In this document: piece after piece, positions 19,267-46,426 of the stretch
How positions within the stretch are numbered: position 1 is the first letter of the stretch
How the letters are laid out: each line of letters starts with the position of its first letter
IMG/VR virus record: IMGVR_UViG_3300023278_002893
Span: 1-64,000 of that record
Length of the DNA stretch: 64,000 nt
Source: a virus
Reading direction: 5' to 3' (one strand)
Made by a program: the position numbers and the translations under genes
Notes under the pieces: model-generated
Databases searched by the model: none
Seen by the model: the letters and a program-made list of their open reading frames with translations, nothing else
What the model was told of the DNA's origin: nothing

Positions 19267-20754
19267 ATGTTCCAATACGCACCCGAATCGGCGTTCGACG
19301 GATACAAAGGCGACCATCGTCGTCAATACCCCGACATGACACAATATGTCAATTCCAACTGGACTGCCCGCGGGTCCAGAGTCCAAGGGCAAAGGGAGGT
19401 TGTTTCGTTCTCCCTTCAAGCATTCCTTCAGGAACGTATGATGGACGACTTTCAACGGCTGTTCTTCGATGTACCGCTGGAAAAGGTACTGAAGAGGCAC
19501 GCTCGTCGGATGAACGGTTATCTCGGTCCCAACGACATGGGGGTTCAGCACATCGCCGACCTCCACGATCTGGGCTACGTACCTCTCCAGTTTTCTGGAT
19601 TGGAGGAGGGCACCCTGTGTCCGCTGCGCGTACCCCAATTCACTGTGCAGAACACACTTCCAGAGTTCTTCTGGATGACCAATGCATATGAAACCTTGAC
19701 CTCTACCTCGGTTTGGCAGCCCTCGACCTCGGCAACCACTGCCTATCGGTTTCGGAAGCTGCTGAATCAGTATGGGGCATTCACGGGGACAGCCCCCGAA
19801 GGTATTGGCTACCAAGGCCACGACTTCAGTTTCCGGGGACTACCCGGCCTGGAGGCGGCGGCCGCATCTGCTGCTGGTCACCTCCTGTCCTTCATCGGAA
19901 CGGATACTGTCCCGGCACTGGATTGGATCGAGCAGTACTACTGGGGCGACGAGCCGGACGATTATGTCATCGGCCAGTCAGTTTTCGCGACGGAGCACTC
20001 TGTCATGTGCGCCGGCGGAAAAGTTGGAGAACTTCAGACTTTCGAACGTCTGCTGGGTCTCTACCCCACCGGCATCTTCTCGGTAGTGTCCGACACCTGG
20101 AACCTGTGGCACGTCCTCACGGACATCCTTCCCAAACTCAAAGACCAGATCATGGAGCGCGAGGGCAAGATGGTCATTCGCCCCGACTCGGGTAACCCTG
20201 CAGACATTCTCTGCGGTGATCCCGAGGCAGTACGAGGAACTCCCGAGAGCAAGGGCGTTGTTCAACTGCTGTGGGAGGTCTTTGGCGGAACGAAGAACAA
20301 GTACGGTTACAAGGAGCTGGATTCCCACATCGGTTGCATCTACGGGGACGCCATCACCTTCGAGCGTGCTACAGAGATCATGCAGAGGCTGGCAGCATCG
20401 GGATTTGCTTCCGGCAACGTGGTCTTCGGGGTCGGTTCCTACAGCTATCAGCACGTCACCCGGGACACCTATGGACATGCCATGAAGGCTACTTGGGCGC
20501 AGGTTGATGGTGAAGGTCGAGACCTGTTCAAGAAACCGATCACCGATGGTGGTGAGAAGTTCTCCGCGACCGGACGGCTGGCAGTTCATGCCTACGACGA
20601 CGGTGAGCTGTATGTAATCGAGAAGGCCACTCCGGAGGAAGAAGCGGCATCGCTTCTGGTGCCTCGGTGGAAAGACGGTGAGTTCCTGAGCCGTACCTCC
20701 ATCTCTCAGGTACGAGCCAAGCTCTGGAGCGGTCAGCACGAGACCTCACTGTAG
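19267..20754 (+). CDS. nadV: Nicotinamide phosphoribosyltransferase family (NadV/NAMPT-like, or Namat)
   Basis: 495 aa, full family length. Hallmarks: DGYKGDHRRQYP near the start, IRPDSGNPADI in the phosphoribosyl-binding region, and conserved VGSYSYQ. NadV joins nicotinamide and PRPP to NMN. In NARP1 the homologue joins nicotinamide to ADPR-pyrophosphate, giving NAD directly. Located 2 bp after the Prs-like gene, so both are made from one message. Codon use is somewhat more GC-rich than in the first 18 kb, consistent with a separately acquired cassette. Confidence 0.92.
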   Translation: MFQYAPESAFDGYKGDHRRQYPDMTQYVNSNWTARGSRVQGQREVVSFSLQAFLQERMMDDFQRLFFDVPLEKVLKRHARRMNGYLGPNDMGVQHIADLHDLGYVPLQFSGLEEGTLCPLRVPQFTVQNTLPEFFWMTNAYETLTSTSVWQPSTSATTAYRFRKLLNQYGAFTGTAPEGIGYQGHDFSFRGLPGLEAAAASAAGHLLSFIGTDTVPALDWIEQYYWGDEPDDYVIGQSVFATEHSVMCAGGKVGELQTFERLLGLYPTGIFSVVSDTWNLWHVLTDILPKLKDQIMEREGKMVIRPDSGNPADILCGDPEAVRGTPESKGVVQLLWEVFGGTKNKYGYKELDSHIGCIYGDAITFERATEIMQRLAASGFASGNVVFGVGSYSYQHVTRDTYGHAMKATWAQVDGEGRDLFKKPITDGGEKFSATGRLAVHAYDDGELYVIEKATPEEEAASLLVPRWKDGEFLSRTSISQVRAKLWSGQHETSL

Positions 20755-26642: not shown

Positions 26643-26733
26643 AAGTAGTTCACAGACAATAACACCAAGAACTAACTAAAACCACCATCAGCTGATTCAA
26701 ACCGCAAAAACAATCATCCACTAGGAGAAAACG

Positions 26734-29700
26734 TTGAAGAATTTCGCTACGATCTTGAAGGCCATTACTCAAGATCAACTTCACCGGTTCAACAACCGCA
26801 TGCGCGCAAGTGGAAATACTCTTAATTTGAACGTAGAAATACGCGAAGAGAGTTTGAACATCTGTGTGGATTTCCGCACGCAAGACGAAGTAGGTACTCT
26901 GATCATTCCGCAACTTCGAAAGAACGAGTTTGGCAATTATGTCATAGGAGATCGAGTCGATCGAGCGATGTGCCCTTTCATGGTGGTCATGGACGGCAAC
27001 CCGCAACACATCAGCTACGAGAAGATGATTCTCGCAATGCTGAGCATGAACATGGAGGATCTCTTCCCCGAGCAGGGAAAGAGGAACCAAATTGGCAAGA
27101 TCCTTTGGGCGTTCTATCAAAAGAGAGGACGTCTCACGCTGGGTCAGTGCCAGAAGTTCCTCAACCAACGACTGTTCAATGCTCTGCCCCTGAGTGGAAC
27201 CTCCATGCAGGACTGGGCGATGAACCACCGCGTAATGATCTTCGATCCAATCTTCGACACTCTGAATCCCCCGGAGAAATTGGCATACCAGAGGCGCAAG
27301 AATGAATTGCTCCACCCCTGGTCCTCCATCGGAATATCCGAGGGTGCCGCCGCTACGCGGAACTACATACTCCAGAAGGATCTGAGAAACATCACTGCGT
27401 TTGGTAACAGGCACCATAACCCAATCCGAAATCTGTATTCTACCCTAGGAATGAAGGGCCCAGAAGCACCCTTGGTGATCTCCGAGGCTGCCGCGCGGTT
27501 GGAAGATCAAGGAATCGTGCGGGGTGGTTGGAACTGGATGACCGTGTTCCTGGATCTTCCCGAGACCTTCGAGGATCAAATCCTTGTTTCTGGTCGGCAT
27601 GCAGGTAAGACGGTGACCTACGAGAGAACCTTCACCGTGTTCGGTGAAGAGTCAGTAAATGTTGGAGATAACATCCTCAAGGGGAGAGTAATCGGAACCA
27701 ACGAGGACGAGAGCTCCATATATTTCGACATTGATTGCGAGCGTGCGGAAGTAATCGAGTGTAAGAACGGTAATGTGCCCTTCGACGGCCAGGATCAGCC
27801 AGTACGTATTGTTGTTCTCCGAGTCGTGTATACTTTCAAAGAGGGTTTCAAGATTACAAATCAGCACGGGAACAAGGGTATCGTAAAGGTCCTGCCTGAC
27901 CTCGGCACCGTTCAAGATCCAGTTCGTGGTGAAGTACCGATCGACGTGATCGTATCTGCCAAGTCCGTACAGAAGCGCAAGAACTTCGGTCAGATTCTCG
28001 AAGCGCTTGCCACTCGGGTCACCGGGCCGAAGAAGCGAATGGCTGTTCCCGACGATCTTCGTATCGAAGTAGCGCAGATCGAAAAGAAACTGGTCTCTGC
28101 TGGGTACCAAAAAGAAGGTACCTGCAAGGTCATCACGCCTTGGGGAGAATTCGATTCAATCTGTGGTTGGGTTCACTGGGGAGTCACCAAGACTCCTGAG
28201 GAACAACTCTGGCAGGGAAGGGATGTAAAGGCGACCAACCAACGGGGTCTTCGCATCCGAGGCAACAAGGTATCTCCCATCGAATTGAAAGCAATGACCA
28301 CCCTCTTCGGGCCCCGCTCGCAAGTGGTAAAGGAAGTGCTCTCACATCGACAAGGCCAGGACGAGGTCAGGGAGCTTCTGGACATCGTACGGGGAATGTC
28401 AGGTCTTTACCGAGACAACCTTCCCACGATCGATCCGGCCACTTTCGTATACAAACCGTCGGGTATGGGAACCTTCCATGACCAGGAAGCTCTCGTAGGA
28501 ACGGTGGCGGACGAAGAAATGTTCCCGGTCGGATGCTATATCCAACTCCCCTTCCGACTTCTGGTATCCATTCCGGATGACAGGAGTAAGGGGATACAAG
28601 AAGGTATCGCAGGTGAGAATGCCTACGAGCGATTGGGTACGGGGACTCGATACTTTGAGTTCGATCGCCTGATGGTTCCTTCTGCTGCTCTGCGACAACC
28701 GTGGAGGCACGCAACGGGAAAGCTCGGTCTGGCAGACATCGCCACACAGTTGAATCAGATACTGGAAGGTATTGATCGACTGGCACTTGGTGAGATTAAG
28801 GAGGCACAGCTCTCCACTCTAATCTTCCGCTACCTGCACCACATCGGACGTTCCCTCTCCACGAAGAACGGTAAGATCAGCACCTATGCAATGTCAACTC
28901 GCTACCCCTGGTCTTCTAAAGCCACTGCAATTCTCGGCTGCGGCCTGGAGACAAACTGGGTGGAGATCCACAAGGACATGGCACGAGACCTCAAGGTCGA
29001 GACCGGTGATTATGTCATGGTAGAACGTTTCCCGTGTTTGGGATTCATGTCAACGCGTATCCAGCGAGTGAAGGTGACCGACGATCCAGAGGCAAAGTAT
29101 GTCATCCGGGTCAGCGGCAATAGCCTGGGTTCAATGAACCTGGACTTCGATGGCGATGTTATTTATCTGATGAGCTTCCACACAGAGGGTGCCAAAGCGG
29201 AGTTGGAGCACAACTTCCACAACCCACACCCGAAGGTCAAGGAAGTCATCGACCGTCTGAACAACAAGAAGCAGCCAATGACCCGGACCATGACCCTCCA
29301 GGAAATGGAGATCATGTCCTTCGATCCAATGAGCCCAGAAGAGCACGCCGAGTTGAACGCCACATCCCTTGCTGTAAAACTCTGGACAGGGCCGACGATC
29401 GCACTTTGCTACAGCATGATGCGAATCGTGGAGGGAAATATCCCCTACGAAGACCGTGAAGCGCACATCAACATCGAGGTCTTCCTTGATAAGGTGGGTA
29501 ACTCTGTCTTCTCCCAGAAGCACGGAACGAAGAGCCTCAGAGAAGAGTGTGTGGAAGCGGTGTGTCTTGCCAAGCCGGAGGCACTGGTAGAATTGGGCTT
29601 CCCTGTAAGGGAGAGCGCCCAGCTCTGCAACATCATCCGTTCCTATGCCTCGAAGTTGGGTGTTCGAACCGACGAGGAACTTCTGGCACATTATAAACGC

Positions 29701-29898
29701 CACGTGGAAGAAGGAAAAGCAACCATCGTTAGTGCTATTGTGCGGCGCTTCCACAAGACCTACTTTGCAACCCGATCCAATCTCCACCCGCTTGATCTTT
29801 TGGAGCACCTGGAGCAAGAACCACGAGATCTCGTATCCTACCTGGTACAACAAACACTGGAGGGAGGAGATCGCGATAAGGAACTTAAGGTCGTATAG
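26734..29898 (+). CDS. Single-chain multisubunit-type RNA polymerase (fused beta and beta' catalytic cores)
   Basis: 1054 aa. Beta-type motifs come first: FEDQILVS (279-286; compare FEDSILVS of cellular beta), then Lys373 and Lys381 in a GFKI...HGNKG segment, with the same 8-residue spacing as E. coli beta Lys1065/Lys1073, then NFGQILEALA (compare NIGQILE). The beta' motif follows: VERFP...(compare LNRAPTL) and NLDFDGD with Asp804/806/808, the Mg-binding triad. So both double-psi barrels sit in one chain about 40% the length of beta plus beta'. It should transcribe DNA in the host cytoplasm. Alternatives are a YonO-like or RNA-silencing-type polymerase, but the motifs are closer to cellular beta/beta'. 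AGGAG precedes the start, which is TTG at 26734. Confidence 0.9.
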   Translation: MKNFATILKAITQDQLHRFNNRMRASGNTLNLNVEIREESLNICVDFRTQDEVGTLIIPQLRKNEFGNYVIGDRVDRAMCPFMVVMDGNPQHISYEKMILAMLSMNMEDLFPEQGKRNQIGKILWAFYQKRGRLTLGQCQKFLNQRLFNALPLSGTSMQDWAMNHRVMIFDPIFDTLNPPEKLAYQRRKNELLHPWSSIGISEGAAATRNYILQKDLRNITAFGNRHHNPIRNLYSTLGMKGPEAPLVISEAAARLEDQGIVRGGWNWMTVFLDLPETFEDQILVSGRHAGKTVTYERTFTVFGEESVNVGDNILKGRVIGTNEDESSIYFDIDCERAEVIECKNGNVPFDGQDQPVRIVVLRVVYTFKEGFKITNQHGNKGIVKVLPDLGTVQDPVRGEVPIDVIVSAKSVQKRKNFGQILEALATRVTGPKKRMAVPDDLRIEVAQIEKKLVSAGYQKEGTCKVITPWGEFDSICGWVHWGVTKTPEEQLWQGRDVKATNQRGLRIRGNKVSPIELKAMTTLFGPRSQVVKEVLSHRQGQDEVRELLDIVRGMSGLYRDNLPTIDPATFVYKPSGMGTFHDQEALVGTVADEEMFPVGCYIQLPFRLLVSIPDDRSKGIQEGIAGENAYERLGTGTRYFEFDRLMVPSAALRQPWRHATGKLGLADIATQLNQILEGIDRLALGEIKEAQLSTLIFRYLHHIGRSLSTKNGKISTYAMSTRYPWSSKATAILGCGLETNWVEIHKDMARDLKVETGDYVMVERFPCLGFMSTRIQRVKVTDDPEAKYVIRVSGNSLGSMNLDFDGDVIYLMSFHTEGAKAELEHNFHNPHPKVKEVIDRLNNKKQPMTRTMTLQEMEIMSFDPMSPEEHAELNATSLAVKLWTGPTIALCYSMMRIVEGNIPYEDREAHINIEVFLDKVGNSVFSQKHGTKSLREECVEAVCLAKPEALVELGFPVRESAQLCNIIRSYASKLGVRTDEELLAHYKRHVEEGKATIVSAIVRRFHKTYFATRSNLHPLDLLEHLEQEPRDLVSYLVQQTLEGGDRDKELKVV

Positions 29899-33584: not shown

Positions 33585-34697
33585 ATGAACTTTGATATCA
33601 ATCCCCACCCCAAGCTGATCAACGACCACCAGACGATCCGACTCCCTAGAAAGTTGAGAAAAGAAATAGGAGTGTTGGTGGGTCAGTTCATGCAGATCAG
33701 CGGTAAGGAAACCTTAGTCTTGGAAATCGGGAAGGACCTCGATGATTTCGAGACCAGTGCTTATGTCAGTGAGTCTAACTTTAGGAAGATTGAGGGACAA
33801 CAGTTAGAGTTCAAGATACTTGACGTAACATTAGGCTGTGATCCGGAGTTTTTCATTATGTGGGGGAAGCGTCTGATATCTGCGACTACTTATCTCCCAT
33901 TCAATGGTGCAATCGGTGCTGATGGTAATTTAGGAGAGCTTAGGCCTATGTATGCCCGTCACGAAAATGACGTGGTAGCTAACCTCCAAACGCTAATCAC
34001 CCAAGTACCAACTCGTATGAAAAGAGGCTACGGTGTGTCCGAAGGGTATCCCAAAGACGGTTCCCTCTTCGACCTTCAAGCCCACTCCTATTACTATGGA
34101 CTCGCAGCTGGGTTCCATGTGCATATGGGAATACCTCCCGAAATTCTAAACACCCGTAAATCTTTCAACCGGATAGCAATGAACCATCTGGTGAAATGCT
34201 TCGATTGGTTCGTATCTGTACCTTTAGTTCCTCTCGACGAAACTCCAGGCAGAAGACTGGGAGAGACTACCTACGGACAAGCGGGAGATTACCGCACAAC
34301 CAATTCGACCCTAGAATATAGAACTCCGGGAGGATTCTATCTCAGAACACCCACACTAGCTCGGGGTATGATGGGGTTATGTCTCATGGTAGCGGAGAAT
34401 GTAGTTAGTAGGATGAAGATCGCCAGTAGGAACTTCACAAGTCTGGACAAACTAACTCCTAATGACATGCAAGAGATCATGCCTGTTCCAAAAGTAAGTA
34501 AGGTTAAAGGAACCCTGGGAGCGCGAAGCCCGCTCGCAGCGGAGGGTTGCCTGGATGAAATACAGGAAAGCTTGAAGAAATTCCCCAACTACGATAAACA
34601 TCGGCGTTCAGTAGATGATTTTTTCAGCGTAGTGAGGTCAGGTCAAATACCAGTTTCCGACTTAATCCCTAATTGGAAGGTTAATGATGCCCAATAG
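33585..34697 (+). CDS. Phage amidoligase A (COOH-NH2 ligase, glutamine-synthetase fold)
   Basis: 370 aa. Active-site words of the phage amidoligase family: GCDPEFF (residues 84-90), GADG...GELRP, GFHVHMG (His178, His180) and LEYRTPGG. The family uses ATP to join a carboxyl to an amine, making amide or isopeptide bonds. It opens a module with two glutamine amidotransferases, ATP-grasp and GNAT genes, the combination predicted by comparative genomics to make modified peptides. Substrate unknown. AGGAG precedes the ATG. Confidence 0.85.
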   Translation: MNFDINPHPKLINDHQTIRLPRKLRKEIGVLVGQFMQISGKETLVLEIGKDLDDFETSAYVSESNFRKIEGQQLEFKILDVTLGCDPEFFIMWGKRLISATTYLPFNGAIGADGNLGELRPMYARHENDVVANLQTLITQVPTRMKRGYGVSEGYPKDGSLFDLQAHSYYYGLAAGFHVHMGIPPEILNTRKSFNRIAMNHLVKCFDWFVSVPLVPLDETPGRRLGETTYGQAGDYRTTNSTLEYRTPGGFYLRTPTLARGMMGLCLMVAENVVSRMKIASRNFTSLDKLTPNDMQEIMPVPKVSKVKGTLGARSPLAAEGCLDEIQESLKKFPNYDKHRRSVDDFFSVVRSGQIPVSDLIPNWKVNDAQ

Positions 34698-36384
34698 CAC
34701 CGGACAGCGCTCGATCAGCTTTCAACAGAGGTCGAATAGACCTCCGCTGACAAGCGAAGAGTGCAGCTATCTTCTCGAACTTCTGCCGAAGATTTTGAAA
34801 GTCGGGACAGAATTCGAAACTAATCTTCCAGAAGCAGGCGCCGCGCTCGAGGTGAAAAGTGGCATAAGGTGCGTACATTCAGTTTCGCCAAGAAACTGCG
34901 TGGAGGATTGTACCAACGTAGAAAGCTGTTTGGTGGAAAGGCACCCTACATTTTGTAAGACCCGCAGTTCGGGACAATTCCTAGGTGAAAAAACCACGTG
35001 TCCGGCAGGAAACGCCGATGACATCGACGCTTGTAGAGCATGCGACAAGTGGTTACTGGATTGTCGTAAACAGAAGTGTGCCTCTTACACCCCCTTCTGC
35101 TCAGTCTGCCCGAACTTTTCAGTAGCAGGAGCTTCCGTCGTCGACGCAGACATTCGACAAGATGCGGAAAGTATTCGTCAAGAAGTAAAGAAATTACTCA
35201 GGCCGACCGAACACGTAGGAATCGTTGGTAAGTCTGGAGCACTGAGTGTGATCAAGGACGGTTCCCTACTCGGTGGCGGGATCGAAGTACCCACCGTAGG
35301 TAGAAGGGTACATTGGCAGAGCTTTTACAAGATGTGTGAGGGAATTCTTGAACCCATCATAAAACGTGGTGGATTTGTCGATGAAAGAACAGGTCAGCAT
35401 TTCCATGTACTGTCCGGTTACTTCGATAAAGGCACAACCCACGCGATCAATGATTTGGAAGTGCCCCTACCAGAGATCGTTTTGGCCAACCTTCACCAGC
35501 TACATCGAAGATACGAAGCCGCGATGTTCTGGATGATGAGTTGTGGAAATAGGATGGAACACCTCACAAGGTGGTCAAGGTTCCGGCAATCCATATACCA
35601 ATACAGCGCACTGCGCAGTCGAATGAGTACCGTGCAACAGGAATTGGCAGAAAAGATAGTATGTATGGGCGGTACCAACCAAAATGGTAAGTACGCTTCT
35701 GTTGCATATCACTTCTGCCGATTTGACGTCGCGGGGGACGTTAGTACTCTGCACTTCGAGAATCGTATTGCGGATGGATGTCTTTCCCCAGCGGTAATCA
35801 CTGCGTGGGCAATGATGTGCTATGCTCTTGTCCTCAAGGCGGTTCGACTTTCCCAATACGGAATCATGGAAGTTGGAGATAGTGAATACAACGCGGCAGC
35901 GAAAGAAGCCTCCTCCCACCTAATCGATGGAGAAAGACGAAGTTGGGACGGCAGCCGACACGCCGATACTTCAGGCATTGGACCATCGATTCCCTTCCTC
36001 CAAAGATCTTCAAGAGAGCTAATCCAACTTCTCAAACCGGAGATACACAACTTAGGGCCGGCGTTCCATATCCTAATGGAGCTGGCAGAGAAGCCCTGCT
36101 CGATCCGTCTTGCCAACGGAGACTCTTGGGACGAGATTGAATCCGAACTTTACGGACCTTATAAGCATGAAGAATCTCCATTTACCGGAAACAACGTGGA
36201 TGAGGTGCGGGAACTCATCGACCTGGCAACGATCATAGAGTGTGAGGATGTTAACGCGTGGATAGGAGAGGTCGCTGGCCATCTAGGTCAAGAGACCGAA
36301 GTCACCGAAGAAACGGTACAAAGTCTACTCGCTTCTGGGCGATATAGATGGAGCCCGGCGATCGGCTCGCTCATTACTGTTTAG
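34684..36384 (+). CDS. Amidoligase B with cysteine-rich insert, 566 aa
   Basis: Diverged amidoligase: KVGTEFETN near residue 40 is the Glu-x-Glu type metal motif, TGQHFHV matches the His-x-His segment and FENRIADG the substrate strand. Between residues about 60 and 145 lies an insert with about a dozen cysteines, probably a multi-zinc or disulfide module not usual in this family. It overlaps amidoligase A by 14 nt, so both are likely made together. Confidence 0.7.
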   Translation: MMPNSTGQRSISFQQRSNRPPLTSEECSYLLELLPKILKVGTEFETNLPEAGAALEVKSGIRCVHSVSPRNCVEDCTNVESCLVERHPTFCKTRSSGQFLGEKTTCPAGNADDIDACRACDKWLLDCRKQKCASYTPFCSVCPNFSVAGASVVDADIRQDAESIRQEVKKLLRPTEHVGIVGKSGALSVIKDGSLLGGGIEVPTVGRRVHWQSFYKMCEGILEPIIKRGGFVDERTGQHFHVLSGYFDKGTTHAINDLEVPLPEIVLANLHQLHRRYEAAMFWMMSCGNRMEHLTRWSRFRQSIYQYSALRSRMSTVQQELAEKIVCMGGTNQNGKYASVAYHFCRFDVAGDVSTLHFENRIADGCLSPAVITAWAMMCYALVLKAVRLSQYGIMEVGDSEYNAAAKEASSHLIDGERRSWDGSRHADTSGIGPSIPFLQRSSRELIQLLKPEIHNLGPAFHILMELAEKPCSIRLANGDSWDEIESELYGPYKHEESPFTGNNVDEVRELIDLATIIECEDVNAWIGEVAGHLGQETEVTEETVQSLLASGRYRWSPAIGSLITV

Positions 36385-36404
36385 ATAGGAGGTCGTAGGT
36401 TAGA

Positions 36405-37229
36405 ATGTGTGGAATTGCAACAATCTCTATTGGGCGAGGCAGGCGCGGGAGAATTCCCTATAATAAGCTCCAAGGCCTTACCCAAAAGATCCTGGTTGAA
36501 CTGTCCGATCGAGGACAAGATGCATCAGGAATAGCGGTAGTCGGTGACGACCACTGCTTCGTATTCAAGAAACCGCTGAGGCCGGATAGATTGGTGGTTA
36601 GACCAAGATTTAGGGAAATCCTGGAAAAAATCGGGCCGGAAACAAATTTCATTATGTTGCACTCACGGGCAGCATCGGTAGGAGGTAACGAAGACAACTT
36701 CAACAATCACCCCATCGTAGCAGACCCGGTCATTGGTATCCACAACGGTACTCTCTACAACACTGAGAAACTACGCAAAAAGTTCAGTGATAGATTTTCG
36801 ACGGCGGGGAATGTAGATTCCGAGATCCTCTTCCGGATGTTCAACATGTATCTAGAAGAAGGACTAACTCCCAAACAAGCCCTGTGCAAGGTCACCGAAC
36901 AACTGTCGGGTGCTTTTACTGGGGCAGCGTTGGATCTTCGACACACCCATCGAATGTTGATGTTCAAGTTCCAACGTGATTTGGCGGTATTGCAGCTTAG
37001 TCACTACGACATACTCGTCGCGGTATCAAAACCGTATCACTACGATCGGGCGAGGGATACGATGGGACTGTCCGTGAAGGACAAGCTTTCGTATCCTAAG
37101 GAAGCAACTGCATTTTCGATTGATCTAAATGACGGGCCGGTCACAGAGCAATCAGACACTTTCCCCATTCCAGTAAAGAAAGAAGAATACTGGAAAGATG
37201 AATATAAACAGTGGGCATACTTCGGATAA
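36405..37229 (+). CDS. Class II glutamine amidotransferase A (Ntn hydrolase)
   Basis: 274 aa. Starts Met-Cys-Gly, so Cys2 becomes the N-terminal nucleophile after Met removal. Also DRGQDASG, HSRAAS and GIHNGTLYN, all active-site loops. Releases ammonia from glutamine for a partner synthetase; no synthetase domain is fused, so one of the neighbouring ligases is the likely acceptor. AGGAGGT precedes the ATG. Confidence 0.9.
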   Translation: MCGIATISIGRGRRGRIPYNKLQGLTQKILVELSDRGQDASGIAVVGDDHCFVFKKPLRPDRLVVRPRFREILEKIGPETNFIMLHSRAASVGGNEDNFNNHPIVADPVIGIHNGTLYNTEKLRKKFSDRFSTAGNVDSEILFRMFNMYLEEGLTPKQALCKVTEQLSGAFTGAALDLRHTHRMLMFKFQRDLAVLQLSHYDILVAVSKPYHYDRARDTMGLSVKDKLSYPKEATAFSIDLNDGPVTEQSDTFPIPVKKEEYWKDEYKQWAYFG

Positions 37230-37248
37230 GACAGGAGAGAAGTAAAAA

Positions 37249-38919
37249 ATGTGCGGAATAGTTGGTGTAATTCAGTATGAAAGTGCGGTAGATCGAGCCC
37301 TTCGCCAGAAGGTGCTGAAAATTCTTTTCTCCGAAACAATGATGCAGACTGAATCCCGAGGTAAAGACGCCACAGGTGTGTACCAAGTCCACAAAAACGG
37401 TGACTGGCTCATGACTAAAAAGGGAGTCAGAGTCACCGATTGGATACCTGCAATGCGGTCGGACTCCGGAAACGAAGATCCAATCGACTTCGAAGATATC
37501 GTGGGGAGCTGGCTCGAACATCCCAAAGATTTAGCCGCTGTCGTAGGACACTGCCGCGCGGCTACTGTGGGATCCAGAGGAAAAGACAACAACGACAATC
37601 ACCCCTTCGCGGTTCAGTTGGACGAGGATAACGCCATTTTAGGTATCCATAACGGTACCTTGACCAACCACGAGATCATCTTCGATCGCCTACCTGATCT
37701 TCTTCCTCGACATGGGAAGGTGGATAGCGAGTCTCTATTCCATTTCCTATACCATCTAACTAATGGGGGAACCGAACCGATCGACGGTGACATGTTGAAA
37801 TACATGGGAGAACGTGTAGAGGGCGCCTATGCGGTTATTACGATGAACACCCGATTTCCAGAACAGGTGGTAACGTTCCGTAAAGATCGGCCGATGGAAT
37901 TCTTCATGGTCGCGCCGCTTAATTGCCTCGTCATTACTTCTGAGAAAAAGTTCTTCGAAGCGGCATTGGAAAAGTACAACTTCATCCGCCAAATGCTGCC
38001 AGAGTATAAAGAACTTCCCGCCCTGAGAAGTTGCCACAGGGGACTCATGGACCGAGAGTTTCGAATCTTCGATACAAGTCTTCCTTGGCCCGAAGGACAT
38101 CACCCCACTCATGGAGATTTCGATAAGATCTCAGACGGAAAGGGGGATATGACAAAAATCAGCTCTCCCATTATAGACGACTGGAAGAGCCCGGGAAAAA
38201 CTTCCAAGATAACCCCATCCAACACGCGGAAAATAACGCCCGCGTCCAACACTTCCGTGAAAACTACTAAAGCGAATCCAGTAGTCACTTCCGCAACTAA
38301 CGCCCGGCAGGCCTCGGAGCAAGTGGACACGGTTATAGTAGAGGCGATAATTAAAGTGCCCATCGGTATGGATGACGCCGCTGCGAAGGGGATCGAGCAC
38401 GTAAAAGGACTGGGGCTCCTAGTTCAGTACGATACCATGAACGAACTGGCGAAGTCAATTGGTATAAAGGAAAAGGAACTTGAGCAGCTGAGCGGGCTGG
38501 AACTGGCCAACAAACTGGCATCCATTCACTTTAGCATCGGGCACGCAGCCGCACGACTGTCTGCTCAAAAAGAAGTTAGTGACATACGTTCCAAAGCAAG
38601 TGATAACACCAAACTTCTGGGAAGAGTTGCGGAAAAGCAAAGGAAGGCGGAAATCCATATCTGGGAACATCGCCAGCTGGTGACCATCCTTCTTGCGTTG
38701 GCGCAGGGTAATTTCAAGCTGGACGCCAGTAATGTAAAGATTTCGTTAGCCGCGTTTCCCCAACTGGCGGACGAAAAGAAACAATCCATCCTGAAATCAG
38801 CAAAGAATATATTGGAATGTCAGGAAACCAAACTACTTATCAAAAAGCTTCTGCAGCGCTTCAATGATGTCGCACAGGCTAATGCTAAGAAAATCCAGGA
38901 GTCTAAGGGGACTCCCTAG
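37249..38919 (+). CDS. Class II glutamine amidotransferase B with long C-terminal extension
   Basis: 556 aa. Residues 1-275 repeat the Ntn amidotransferase pattern (MCGIVG start, ESRGKDATG, GHCRAATVGS, GIHNGTLTNHE). A Ser/Thr/Lys-rich linker (about 295-350) leads to a mostly helical domain of unknown fold (about 360-556) that could bind a partner ligase. Paralogue of A. AGGAGAG precedes the ATG. Confidence 0.88.
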   Translation: MCGIVGVIQYESAVDRALRQKVLKILFSETMMQTESRGKDATGVYQVHKNGDWLMTKKGVRVTDWIPAMRSDSGNEDPIDFEDIVGSWLEHPKDLAAVVGHCRAATVGSRGKDNNDNHPFAVQLDEDNAILGIHNGTLTNHEIIFDRLPDLLPRHGKVDSESLFHFLYHLTNGGTEPIDGDMLKYMGERVEGAYAVITMNTRFPEQVVTFRKDRPMEFFMVAPLNCLVITSEKKFFEAALEKYNFIRQMLPEYKELPALRSCHRGLMDREFRIFDTSLPWPEGHHPTHGDFDKISDGKGDMTKISSPIIDDWKSPGKTSKITPSNTRKITPASNTSVKTTKANPVVTSATNARQASEQVDTVIVEAIIKVPIGMDDAAAKGIEHVKGLGLLVQYDTMNELAKSIGIKEKELEQLSGLELANKLASIHFSIGHAAARLSAQKEVSDIRSKASDNTKLLGRVAEKQRKAEIHIWEHRQLVTILLALAQGNFKLDASNVKISLAAFPQLADEKKQSILKSAKNILECQETKLLIKKLLQRFNDVAQANAKKIQESKGTP

Positions 38920-38937
38920 GGTCGAGGAAACCAAGCA

Positions 38938-40206
38938 ATGTCCAATAAAGTGCAGCTTCGACTCATGTCCTCCTCGAAGATGTCAAATGCGGGAGAAGGG
39001 GACATTATCAGATTCCCCAAGGCGGCGAGGCAGAATTTTGGCTTCTCCAACAGCAGGGTAATGATAGGTAAAGGCCCCTACGAGATAGCTCTCAAAGTAA
39101 AGAAAGCCTACTCGGAAGATGTACGCCGGCTCGCTGTCATGATCAAAAATGTGAAGATCTCCGAAGTGGATGCCCAGTGTGTAGGGTTCGTGCACAGCAA
39201 CGTACGGAAGAGAATCGTCGCGAAGCGGGGCGGTCAAGAGGATATCTGGATTACTGAGGGGATCGGCGACATTACCGTCGGCGCAGATCCCGAGTTTGGA
39301 TTGATTGACAGCGGTGGAATGTTGGTGCGCGGTAACAATATCGTATCAAAGGTAGGTAAATTCGGAAGTGATGGTCCGAGCGTAGAAGTTCGGCCCACTC
39401 CCAGTACTAACCACCTGGAAGTGGTGGGAAGCATCTCGGACATCATGGAAAATCCGCCTGGGCGAGCCGATGATTACAAATGGACGGGGGGTGCTACTTT
39501 CAGAGACACCGATAGGGTCTATTGGTTCGGCGGACATGTTCATCTCGGGAGACCCACTCAAATTGATGCGAATGAGGCGTATCCTATCTACAAAAGAATC
39601 GCAACCGCACTTGATGGGTTATTAGCCCTGCCAATGGTGCGCTTCGATACCCCCAATCCCTGGGAACGACGAAACGGATGCAAATACGATTACGGTAAAG
39701 CCGGGGACATACGGGCAGACTATCCAGAACAAAATCGATTCGAGTACCGGGTACTTAGCGGACTGTGGGTAGTACATCCCACATTAGCTACTATAGCAAT
39801 CGGTGCCGCCAAGTGTATTGTGGAAACCGCATACGGAAGGATTGCGGAAAAAGGATTTGATCCAATATGGGCGTCACAACCTATCTCTCGGGGAGGTATG
39901 TTGAAAAGCTTTGGACTGAAGGGAGTTCGGGAGATTCAAGCGGTAGTAAATCATGCGGATCCAAGGAGAATCACCCAAGACCATTTAGACACTTGGGAAA
40001 GAAACATTCGTAATTTGGACCGGTTCAATAAGTACAGGGCGGAGATCGAGGCGATGGTTGAACTGTCAAAGGAAAACCCAGAAAACATCGTCAGCGGGAT
40101 GGACCTAAACGTTAAAAGAAATTGGCAAGAGAGACGCACGTTGCTCCCTCGGGCCAGCAAGAAACTCAGAAAGGCGCTTGACGTCGTCGAGGAGAAAAGA
40201 AAATGA
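38938..40206 (+). CDS. Phage amidoligase C (COOH-NH2 ligase)
   Basis: 422 aa, same family as amidoligase A: GADPEFG (115-121), GSDGPSVEVRP, GGHVHLG (His200, His202), YDYGKAGDIR and FEYRVLSG. An extra N-terminal region of about 100 residues is not recognised. Two type-alike ligases plus a diverged one suggest consecutive couplings. Overlaps the ATP-grasp gene by 4 nt. Confidence 0.85.
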   Translation: MSNKVQLRLMSSSKMSNAGEGDIIRFPKAARQNFGFSNSRVMIGKGPYEIALKVKKAYSEDVRRLAVMIKNVKISEVDAQCVGFVHSNVRKRIVAKRGGQEDIWITEGIGDITVGADPEFGLIDSGGMLVRGNNIVSKVGKFGSDGPSVEVRPTPSTNHLEVVGSISDIMENPPGRADDYKWTGGATFRDTDRVYWFGGHVHLGRPTQIDANEAYPIYKRIATALDGLLALPMVRFDTPNPWERRNGCKYDYGKAGDIRADYPEQNRFEYRVLSGLWVVHPTLATIAIGAAKCIVETAYGRIAEKGFDPIWASQPISRGGMLKSFGLKGVREIQAVVNHADPRRITQDHLDTWERNIRNLDRFNKYRAEIEAMVELSKENPENIVSGMDLNVKRNWQERRTLLPRASKKLRKALDVVEEKRK

Positions 40207-43044: not shown

Positions 43045-44076
43045 ATGATTACGCTCGACACTTTTATCGGGAACACCGAACTAATTCAGCTCCTGAAAAT
43101 AGAAGTAATGGCAGCAAGAATGCGCAACAAAGAAATGCCCCACGTTTTACTAAAAGGCCCGGCTGGGTGCGGAAAGACTACCCTCGGAGAGGTACTCGCA
43201 CGCGAATTTGGAGGGGAGCTGACAACGCTCACCCCCAATACCGCAAAGAACGCGGACGACTTAAGAAAGTTCTTCCTGGAGATGCCGGATCAGGGGTACG
43301 ATGAGGAAGGCAAAATAGTTGGTAAAATAGATCCTCAAATCGTATTCATCGACGAGGTTCACCAACTGTCTCTGCTAGCCCAGGAGCTGTTGGGAATCGC
43401 AATGCATGACTGGAGACTTCCTGTCAGGGTAGGGGGCAAGGATGAGTTCGAATGGGTACCTAGATTTACATTAGTGGGTGCAACTACCGTACCTGGAAAA
43501 CTATCTAAACCCTTCCGAGACAGATTCAAGGTACAAGCCCTGTTCGAAACCTATTCCCACAGAGAATCTCTAGAGATAGTAGATGTTCACGCCAGGAATG
43601 AAGGTCTCCAGCTGGGTGAGGGTGTCTCAGATTCGATAGCAAAGAGATCCAGAGGAGTGGGACGTCTCTTGGTAAGGTATTTAGACAGACTTGCATCAGC
43701 GGCAGTGGTGGCATCTCAGGTCAGACCGGAGGGAAGTAATGTTATTACTTTACCTCTTGCAAATAAAATGTTTGCAGATTTCCTAAAAGTGGACGATCGG
43801 GGGCTGACGAAAACGGACATAAAGATCTTAAAGCAGCTCCACCTTCTGGAAGATCCAGTAGGATTAGATACCCTAGCTGCGATAACCAACGAAGAAAAAT
43901 CTACCATAGAACAAGAAATTGAACCATATTTAGTGCAGGAGGGGCTACTAGCCCGAACTAAACGTGGTCGAGTTATAACAGACGAAGGCAGACGATATTT
44001 ACACACCGCCGGCTACATCAAACTGGCGCCTACCTCGGCGAGAGGGGGCCGCATTATGGGAGCATCGGAGAAATGA
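43045..44076 (+). CDS. ruvB: RuvB-like Holliday junction branch-migration ATPase
   Basis: 343 aa, the usual RuvB length. Walker A GPAGCGKT (38-45), Walker B IVFIDEVH, the RuvB sensor segment FTLVGATTVPGKLSKPFRDRF with arginine finger, and the C-terminal winged helix (GLDTLAAITNEE...DEGRRYL). Drives branch migration of recombination junctions. No ruvA is seen, so it may use host RuvA or act alone. GAGGT precedes the ATG; overlaps the sigma gene by 4 nt. Confidence 0.93.
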   Translation: MITLDTFIGNTELIQLLKIEVMAARMRNKEMPHVLLKGPAGCGKTTLGEVLAREFGGELTTLTPNTAKNADDLRKFFLEMPDQGYDEEGKIVGKIDPQIVFIDEVHQLSLLAQELLGIAMHDWRLPVRVGGKDEFEWVPRFTLVGATTVPGKLSKPFRDRFKVQALFETYSHRESLEIVDVHARNEGLQLGEGVSDSIAKRSRGVGRLLVRYLDRLASAAVVASQVRPEGSNVITLPLANKMFADFLKVDDRGLTKTDIKILKQLHLLEDPVGLDTLAAITNEEKSTIEQEIEPYLVQEGLLARTKRGRVITDEGRRYLHTAGYIKLAPTSARGGRIMGASEK

Positions 44077-44909
44077 GTCGAGGAAGCGTAGAGTATCTGA
44101 AGAAAAAACTTAAGGGTCCCATCCTAGAAGAAATCATCGACCCCGCGGACTACTCGCGCGACGACATCATGAAGTCATACTTCCGAGAAATCTTATTCCT
44201 AGCGTCTCGTTTTACTCGCCCCTACGTAGATTACGAAGACCTGGTAGATGAGGGAATCATAGGATTGCTTGACGCGATCAAAAGATTCGACATCAAAAAG
44301 GCCAATAACAATCCCAAGGCATTCCACAACCTCGCTATCGTCCGTATAAAGAGCCATATGTTCGAATTCTTCCTAGCGAACAATACTCAATATACGATTC
44401 CGAACTACATGGCACGGGCAATGGAATTGCTCGGACAAATTCGAGCCACTATCAGCAACTCCAACTACCGAGGGAACAAACAGGAAGCTCTTCGACACCT
44501 CGTATGTGAAGACTTCGAGAACACCGCGGCTCCCGAGGCTGTCAAGAAACTAGGGGTAGTGAAAGGCAAGATGCAACGACTTGCTATCAGCTCCGCTAAG
44601 AGCTATGAAGATATGGTACTTACAGTATTGAAGGTCGAAAGGGACATCGAAAGCTACGAAACGCCCGGCAGTGAGGTAGAACCCACACCAGAAGAAATCA
44701 CTGCGGACAGGGAATATATAGAGAAATTCCTGGACAACCTAAATCCCGACGCAAAGGCTGTCATCACCATGGTCTTAGAGGGCAAGTCCCTGAAGGAAGC
44801 TGGTAGAGAGCGTGGATTCTCTCGTGAACGGGCGCGGCAAATCAAAGAGGCTACGATGAAATACTTCAGGGCCACGCCTATGTACAAAGAATCCGTAGAA
44901 AAAGAATAA
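44073..44909 (+). CDS. Sigma-70 family RNA polymerase sigma factor
   Basis: 278 aa. Region 2: YEDLVDEGIIGLLDAIKRFD (core binding) followed by an aromatic stretch for -10 melting. Region 4 helix-turn-helix: LKEAGRERGFSRERARQIKE near the C-terminus, for -35 reading. Region 1.1 is absent. It could redirect host RNA polymerase or serve the phage's own polymerase; neither is shown. It is driven by the 42962 promoter, one of the recurring set it might itself recognise. Confidence 0.9.
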   Translation: MSRGSVEYLKKKLKGPILEEIIDPADYSRDDIMKSYFREILFLASRFTRPYVDYEDLVDEGIIGLLDAIKRFDIKKANNNPKAFHNLAIVRIKSHMFEFFLANNTQYTIPNYMARAMELLGQIRATISNSNYRGNKQEALRHLVCEDFENTAAPEAVKKLGVVKGKMQRLAISSAKSYEDMVLTVLKVERDIESYETPGSEVEPTPEEITADREYIEKFLDNLNPDAKAVITMVLEGKSLKEAGRERGFSRERARQIKEATMKYFRATPMYKESVEKE

Positions 44910-44944: not shown

Positions 44945-46426
44945 ATGAAGCGACTAAGAGCACTGCGGGAGCTTCGAAAAGAGTTAGGGGCAGAAGTTTT
45001 CTTGGTTGGAGGAACGGTCAGAGACCTGATCCGACGAAGAGAACCCAACGACCTGGACGTTATGGTACGAGGAATCGCCCCCGCTGAATTCGAAACTTTC
45101 CTACGTAAAAGGGGTGCCCTAGAACTTGTAGGTGCATCCTTCGGAGTATATCTTTTCAGACCCACCGAAGAGGGAGGGCAGATCGAGATCGCATTCCCCA
45201 GAACTGAAATTAGCACGGGCGACAAGCACGGTGAGAGTGGTTGGAATGCCGTTCCGGACACCGATCTATCCGTGGAAGAAGATTCAAAAAGACGAGATTT
45301 CACTATCAATGCGATGTATCTCAGCATTGATGATGTGACAGAGAGCGGAGAGTTTAAGCGCGAGCGCGTGATTGATTTTCATAACGGGTTGGATCACATA
45401 AAGAAACGCCTTATCGTAGCAGTGGGAGATCCCGAAGAGAGGATTGAAGAAGATCCACTACGTATGATGAGGGCAATGGTTCTAATAGCCCGAACCGGTT
45501 ATCGTTTGGAGGGCAACACCTTCGGCGCGATCAAAAGAAACGTTGGAAAGGTACAATCAGTGTCCGCTGAACGTATCCGAGATGAGTTCATAAAGATCAT
45601 GGAGGCGGAGAAACCTTCTCGCGGATTCAAAGCCATGTCCAGAACTGAACTTCTAGGAATAATCTTTCCAGAACTACACGCATGTACAGGCTGCGGTCAA
45701 AACCCCAAGTACCACTCGTACCCAGTCTTCGAACACAGCATCACAGCGGCAGACGCAGCTTGCTCCCTGACTGACAGGTTAGATGTTAGGTTCGCAGCAC
45801 TTTGCCACGATTTGGGAAAGGTTCCTACGCGGGAAGTGCGCCCGGGAGGTGATGGCCCAAACGACGTCTCGTTCCATAACCACGAGATGGCATCCTGTAA
45901 GCTGACTTACGCTTTCATGTGCCGATTGAAGTTCCCAAAGAAGTTCACCGACGCGGTGATTGCGTTAGTACGAATGCATCAATATAAATACGATCGAGAG
46001 TGGACCGATAAGGCTGTGCGAAGGTTCATTCGGAACATCGGACTCACCCGGGCAGACCTGGACGATCTCGAAAACCACCCCCAGTTCCTACTCAGGATGG
46101 CGGATCGAATGGGAAACCAACTGAAAGTACACCTCCCCGTAACCATCAAACAGAGAGACTTTCAGGGGCGACTTCGAGAAGTGTATGAAAGCTCAGGAGC
46201 CCACAGCCTTCGGGACTTGAAGATCAATGGTCGAGATCTCATAGAACGATTCGTGATCGCTACGGGTCCTGTAGTGGGTAAGGTAATTGCCCACCTGTTT
46301 GACGCGGTGGAGGAAGCTCCGGAACTAAACAACAGGGACGACCTTTTCCGTCTTGCCGGATTGTTCCTAGAGGAGGAAGAAAATGGAAGTGATCAAACTA
46401 ACCGAGTCAGCTCAAGTACAAGCTAA
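44945..46426 (+). CDS. cca: tRNA CCA-adding enzyme / nucleotidyltransferase with HD domain
   Basis: 493 aa. Class II nucleotidyltransferase head: GGTVRD (22-27), DLD metal pair (Asp36, Asp38), RRDFTINAM and EERIEEDPLRMMRA. A C-terminal HD domain has His288-Asp289 in CHDLGK. Adds CCA to tRNA 3' ends; the HD part may remove phosphates. Four phage tRNAs here (Ala, Phe, Ser-GGA, Cys) lack encoded CCA, so the phage supplies the enzyme they need. AGGAGGT precedes the ATG. Confidence 0.93.
   Translation: MKRLRALRELRKELGAEVFLVGGTVRDLIRRREPNDLDVMVRGIAPAEFETFLRKRGALELVGASFGVYLFRPTEEGGQIEIAFPRTEISTGDKHGESGWNAVPDTDLSVEEDSKRRDFTINAMYLSIDDVTESGEFKRERVIDFHNGLDHIKKRLIVAVGDPEERIEEDPLRMMRAMVLIARTGYRLEGNTFGAIKRNVGKVQSVSAERIRDEFIKIMEAEKPSRGFKAMSRTELLGIIFPELHACTGCGQNPKYHSYPVFEHSITAADAACSLTDRLDVRFAALCHDLGKVPTREVRPGGDGPNDVSFHNHEMASCKLTYAFMCRLKFPKKFTDAVIALVRMHQYKYDREWTDKAVRRFIRNIGLTRADLDDLENHPQFLLRMADRMGNQLKVHLPVTIKQRDFQGRLREVYESSGAHSLRDLKINGRDLIERFVIATGPVVGKVIAHLFDAVEEAPELNNRDDLFRLAGLFLEEEENGSDQTNRVSSSTS

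Follow-up and report, generated by a model that had tools for sequence, protein, structure and literature searches.

The window analysed here comprises bases 1-64000 of the 297,725-base IMG/VR virus record IMGVR_UViG_3300023278_002893 (G000), and carries on its + strand an open reading frame of 1054 codons without a stop (26734-29898). The features of this ORF, together with a sigma factor gene located downstream of it, are listed below with the evidence used for each assignment.

26723-26727, + strand: Shine-Dalgarno sequence AGGAG, 6 nt before the TTG start (read from the sequence)
26734-29898, + strand: putative non-virion single-chain two-barrel RNA polymerase, 1054 aa (Pfam, HHalign, AF2 model, Foldseek)
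27568-27591, + strand: FEDQILVS, residues 279-286 (cellular beta equivalent, FEDSILVS in E. coli)
27592-27849, + strand: predicted flap-position insert in the beta barrel, residues 287-372 (DSSP of the model; alignment position)
27850-27876, + strand: putative catalytic lysines K373 and K381, stretch KITNQHGNK inside GFKITNQHGNKG (matched to the E. coli beta RHGNKG region)
27982-28002, + strand: NFGQILE, residues 417-423 (cellular beta, NxGQxLE)
28735-28857, + strand: shortened beta' clamp-helix hairpin, residues 668-708, helices 668-684 and 690-708 (HHalign; model helices)
28870-28929, + strand: GKISTYAMSTRYPWSSKATA, residues 713-732, matching E. coli beta' (HHalign alignment)
29137-29157, + strand: NLDFDGD, residues 802-808, putative metal-binding Asp804/806/808 of the beta' barrel (PF00623)
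29176-29895, + strand: predicted helical C-terminal region, residues 815-1054 (model)
44073-44909, + strand: sigma70-family factor, 278 aa (Sigma70_r2 6.8e-8, Sigma70_r4 5e-6)

The original prediction, made from the sequence alone, had read the active-site motifs of both the beta and beta' subunits of RNA polymerase in this one ORF, and FEDQILVS, K373, HGNKG with K381, NFGQILE and NLDFDGD were all located at the residues that it gave. The presence of both halves was corroborated by Pfam, where RNA_pol_Rpb2_6 (PF00562; E 1.2e-6, residues 357-467) and RNA_pol_Rpb1_2 (PF00623; E 4.7e-6, residues 752-826) matched above their gathering scores in the order beta then beta'. Additionally, bacterial beta subunits among the PDB sequences matched the ORF at 1e-5 by phmmer and at E 3e-6 by profile search.

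Searches with tblastn against 50,697 phage records did not return any full-length relative of the ORF. Scans of IMG/VR contigs with successively wider alignments identified ten more full-length relatives at 34-73% identity, including two close orthologues (69% and 67% identical to the window protein) and eight remoter, distinct ones (34-40%). When two further conserved regions were used for scanning, the relatives obtained were unchanged except for one more distant homologue, suggesting that the set is near saturation for IMG/VR. Most other NLDFDGD matches in the IMG/VR scan were set aside as unrelated or as separate small beta' proteins. One giant-protein stretch around NLDFDGD, from a 196,567-base record (IMG/VR 3300023278_003531; loci L064 and L088), was identical to that of the window phage, and this record is probably a near-identical strain. 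An RpoB labelled as belonging to 'Acinetobacter phage MD-2021a' (CAKLQH020000005) was rejected as a phage gene, as it lies within an rplA-rplJ-rplL-rpoB-rpoC operon and is probably bacterial DNA.

Both Pfam domains matched in 11/11 family members, and the polymerase is a single ORF in all of them. The putative catalytic residues were conserved throughout: the Asp triad (D804, D806 and D808) is invariant in the 11 members, and in three of them HGNKG is replaced by SANKG or AANKG with the lysine still in place. Across an alignment of 19 rows, amongst which are seven paralogues of the tape-measure type described below, E280 and D281 of FEDQILVS as well as K373 and K381 are invariant. A split form was found only in a distant 261-kb phage contig (L106:2693-6008), where a beta' ORF of 560 aa (DFDGD) adjoins a beta ORF of 565 aa, that is, in reverse order relative to the single-chain family. 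These halves matched the family profile at E 3.4e-7 (beta') and 8.3e-17 (beta), and their separation supports the view of the single chain as two joined modules.

The conservation data bear on whether the protein could be a decayed polymerase that now serves a structural or regulatory function. Its similarity to solved polymerases is at the level of motifs only and many elements are gone, as would be expected of decay, but the lysines and aspartates persist down to 34% identity. Moreover, the comparison with the 69%-identical orthologue revealed 375 synonymous against 327 amino-acid differences, a pattern of purifying selection that fits a selected protein, and we regard decay as highly improbable.

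An AlphaFold2 model based on the 19 aligned rows had a mean pLDDT of 84.6 and a pTM of 0.80, with pLDDT falling below 50 at residues 802-807; a model built with three close homologues (pLDDT 32.5) was unusable, and an alignment extended with beta' sequence from the tape-measure paralogues was left out because that sequence was misaligned. The top Foldseek matches of the model in the PDB were beta subunits of cellular or eukaryotic-virus origin (E 2e-12), such as the ASFV beta subunit 8yqt_B, with 3.6 A over 352 columns. The highest-ranking BFVD entries were a 798-aa protein of Acinetobacter phage ME3 and a phage 'minor tail protein' (1210 columns aligned, TM 0.51). The ME3 region (L143:22115-26850, genes 307-309) is annotated throughout as hypothetical; ME3_309 stops ahead of the Asp triad and is followed by a T5orf172 homing-endonuclease gene, after which ME3_307 carries DVDGD, so that a two-barrel polymerase gene has apparently been split by a T5orf172 insertion in this phage.

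A profile covering residues 640-832 and including the split homologue was used for the beta' half; it was colinear with E. coli beta' residues 242-464 (HHalign 93.7%, E 1.9e-7) and matched a second RpoC at 95.5% (E 1.5e-8). The colinear segment starts at LRP and takes in the clamp helices, the stretch GKISTYAMSTRYPWSSKATA and the barrel as far as DFDGD, and E. coli beta' residues from about 380 to 415 have no counterpart in it. The original prediction had looked to structural modelling for two double-psi barrels in one active site. The model itself was confident and Foldseek recovered the fold of the beta half, with the beta' half being supported by Pfam and HHalign; these results bear indirectly on the geometry of the two putative barrels. 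The 86 residues between FEDQI and K373 are modelled entirely as strands at the position where cellular-type enzymes carry the flap (SBHM), and DSSP of the model gave no flap-tip helix within residues 287-372. Profile searches with the C-terminal 240 residues yielded no sequence match, which we count against the proposed reading. Attempts to assign a bridge helix and trigger loop by profile were unsuccessful; these elements presumably sit within residues 815-1054.

Comparison with known enzymes places the family closest to cellular polymerases. E. coli RpoB and RpoC share with it the Lys and Asp motifs, the beta-then-beta' order and the colinear clamp-helix and switch-2 segment, and E. coli beta matched the family at 89.8-95.3% by HHalign. 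The E. coli subunits total 2749 residues compared to the 1054 of the single chain, and the phage enzyme is without alpha, omega, the bacterial beta' barrel insert and most of the clamp and lobes. YonO of SPbeta, gp66 of the crAss-like phage phi14:2 and the QDE-1 clade likewise hold both barrels in one chain, but HHalign similarity to the family was as low as 0.2% probability for YonO and 0.3% for gp66. RNA-dependent RNA polymerases and YonO have been reported to have no flap domain (PMC7824862), whereas the model predicts an insert at the flap position in the phage enzyme. By HHalign, the family groups with the cellular-type clade and not with YonO and gp66, and derivation from that clade is the best reading of these sequence comparisons. 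The suggestion that this may be a distinct minimal fused polymerase is upheld to the extent that these proteins form a distinct, compact, fused beta/beta' family with motifs more cellular-like than those of YonO or gp66, and the profile comparison proposed alongside it gave the same contrast between bacterial beta and the YonO-type enzymes.

These comparisons are also relevant to a possible main task in the priming of replication or in RNA-templated synthesis. It has been suggested that jumbo phages without primases use their own RNA polymerases for priming (PMC7824862), and the window gene is near genes for a single-stranded DNA-binding protein and a helicase. Features of cellular transcription are nevertheless kept, the paralogue described below is placed for early transcription, and sequence comparison with YonO and gp66 revealed no similarity. 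Either role as the main task is accordingly regarded as very improbable.

Single-chain proteins with cellular-type motifs also occur in named phages. Salmonella phage Arash gp206 and its Vibrio phage D69 counterpart carry LHGNKG and ADYDGD in one chain of 1525-1527 aa, which makes them about 470 residues longer than the window enzyme. Their beta motif region matched the family with 93-96% HHalign probability, and their Asp-triad region was not significantly similar. The Arash gene (L125:3679-8256) is annotated only as RpoB and that of D69 (L124:3673-8256) as hypothetical, although both represent fused beta/beta' proteins. K2ORF6p of the yeast linear plasmids (VLE), already known as a fused enzyme of the cellular type, joins a cellular-type beta with part of beta' and has lost most of the clamp (PMC6211774); compared by description, it differs in residing on a eukaryotic cytoplasmic plasmid and in having the beta' C-terminus as a second subunit, K2ORF7p. 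The multisubunit polymerases of the phiKZ type and the mReC beta/beta' proteins are phage relatives of cellular beta and beta' (PMC7598289, PMC7481178). As proposed for the phage studied here, the phiKZ group has virion and non-virion versions, but these consist of several polypeptides, and no sigma factor has been reported for that group (PMC7824862).

A second polymerase was detected outside of the window, at 160368-174053 on the - strand of the same record (L075), where a 4562-codon frame contains another MNLDFDGD. Residues 540-966 of this giant protein match the family profile with both catalytic lysines aligned. In HHalign, seven giant proteins of this kind matched the beta half of the family at 99.5% (E 6.6e-23) and its beta' half at 65.7% (E 5.8e-5). 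The reciprocal profile, built from the giant proteins, recovered the window gene at 8.7e-23; of 13 related records it matched 12, in most cases at the gene for the non-virion polymerase. The giant protein itself is a tape measure, as indicated by matches to phrog_4211 (2.9e-79, residues 2446-2981) and PF10145 (5.4e-25, residues 2533-2731). Tape-measure proteins determine the length of the phage tail. By these sequence matches, the 4562-residue tape measure carries at its N-terminus a second, homologous two-barrel RNA polymerase. The same fusion was found in G001 and at L089, and in the distant member G011 a frame of 7488 residues (about 171000-190999, L144) contains FEDQILVS, GSKG and KLDYDGD.

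This arrangement is known from the Thermus phage P23-45, which has a non-virion RNA polymerase, gp64, and a virion RNA polymerase fused to its tape measure, gp96 (PMC10770324). In both cases a polymerase is fused to the tape measure of the same phage, beside a non-virion enzyme that is putative in the present phage. The P23-45 enzymes are far more divergent: gp64 (616 aa) was without a significant match to the family (HHalign 4.1%, E 0.01) and gp96 matched in the Asp-triad barrel only (76.9%, E 2e-5), whereas the present enzyme retains both HGNKG and NxGQxLE, and a sigma factor is encoded in the same genome. A literature search, mainly of open papers, for a tape-measure/polymerase fusion or for a single-chain jumbo-phage polymerase with a sigma factor returned only P23-45, apart from papers of a general kind or on unrelated subjects.

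The sigma factor anticipated at 44073 proved to be real, with both regions 2 and 4 recognised. Amongst the 12 polymerase-carrying records, sigma region 2 scored above the cut-off in nine, at 14-17 kb from the polymerase gene; the factor was not found in G008, G011 and the split-homologue record (G012), and was below the cut-off in G009. Ten intergenic regions contain TTGACA-N16-18-TATAAT-like promoters with at most two mismatches, several of them ahead of replication genes, compared to a mean of 2.2 and a maximum of 6 in 50 shuffles. Host-like promoters imply that the host polymerase, or a sigma factor of host-like specificity, probably serves some of the genes. The stretches ahead of late genes yielded Shine-Dalgarno sequences and no phage-specific promoter motif when searched for shared motifs. 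The sigma gene and the sigma70-type promoters point to bacteria as hosts. A polymerase fragment was also present in a 3.2-kb MAG contig binned as Altiarchaeales (L006), but a host assignment based on this contig was dropped since it is too small and probably mis-binned.

Two accounts of how the window enzyme finds its promoters need to be weighed. In bacteria, the clamp-helix hairpin is the main docking site of sigma region 2, and the phage sigma factor could dock on the retained hairpin to form a minimal holoenzyme that reads late promoters. The hairpin is kept in both the alignment and the model, the core of region 2 is the best-preserved stretch of the sigma factor, and the two genes are linked in most records. 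Linkage by itself is a weak argument because the phage genomes are syntenic, the sigma gene was not found in some records as given above, and the predicted structure is without the flap-tip helix that would hold sigma region 4. We therefore view sigma dependence as possible but less likely than not. The more specific arrangement, a one-polypeptide core that works with a same-phage sigma70 factor on a hairpin without the flap-tip helix and is paired with a tape-measure version, must be considered somewhat doubtful.

Phage sigma factors such as T4 gp55 and SPO1 gp28 steer the host RNA polymerase to phage promoters. By analogy, the sigma factor encoded in the window may redirect the host enzyme, with the phage polymerase finding its own promoters independently of sigma as gp64 of P23-45 does. 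Sigma genes are also found in other phages without an exclusive tie to this polymerase, host-type promoters are present, and the P23-45 enzymes use distinct promoters of their own (PMC10770324). Against this account stand the retained hairpin and the association of the two genes across subgroups in which the sigma factor is only 20-28% identical, and we would give it somewhat less than an even chance.

Under either account, the most probable reading (roughly 0.8) is that a jumbo tailed phage encodes in this ORF a single-chain, two-barrel RNA polymerase of the non-virion kind, and that it has in addition a virion paralogue fused to its tape measure. This reading draws on computed results, namely both halves in one chain, conservation in the family, the fold of the beta half, the paralogue with its tape-measure context and the linked sigma gene. 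The chain would join a beta core, consisting of a double-psi barrel with Lys373 and Lys381 and a minimal flap-position insert, to a beta' core with a clamp-helix hairpin, a switch-2-like segment and a second double-psi barrel bearing the DFDGD triad, and it would dispense with lineage-specific inserts. Catalysis, timing and the genes read by each enzyme are aspects that we infer. If P23-45 is taken as the model, the polymerase carried on the tape measure would come in along with the tail tube and serve the first genes to be transcribed, sigma70-type early promoters would probably be read by the host polymerase too, and the window enzyme, produced during infection, would transcribe later genes.

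Single-chain two-barrel polymerases are already known; what is new here is how compact the enzyme is, its paralogue on the tape measure and the sigma gene linked to it. The enzyme illustrates how small a part of beta and beta' is retained in a single chain still resembling a cellular polymerase, and the family may form a link from cellular polymerases to the strongly diverged single-chain enzymes of phages. Additionally, a virion polymerase fused to the tape measure, a feature known in P23-45 and phages close to it, is now seen in a lineage with hardly similar polymerases. If the linked sigma factor works with the enzyme, the minimal needs of sigma-dependent initiation could be tested with two proteins, and a sigma-dependent one-chain core would be the smallest sigma-dependent transcription machine.

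Several other genes, in the window and at other loci, are also of note. ARAGORN identified fourteen tRNA genes at 1116-22268 of the window, one of them (1116-1192) with a four-base anticodon call, ttca, and a CCA-adding enzyme-like protein (44945-46426; PolyA_pol head, RNA-binding and HD domains) adjoins the sigma gene. A nicotinate/nicotinamide phosphoribosyltransferase of NAD salvage is encoded at 19267-20754. At 33585-40206, genes for two phiEco32-like COOH-NH2 ligases and for one or more class II glutamine amidotransferase-like proteins form a cluster similar to the amidoligase genes of the crAss-like phage phi14:2. A ribonucleotide reductase large subunit with intein and LAGLIDADG domains was found at L015:1614-5387 (- strand), and a volactin (actin-like) protein at L022:2994-4310 (- strand, E 2e-65).
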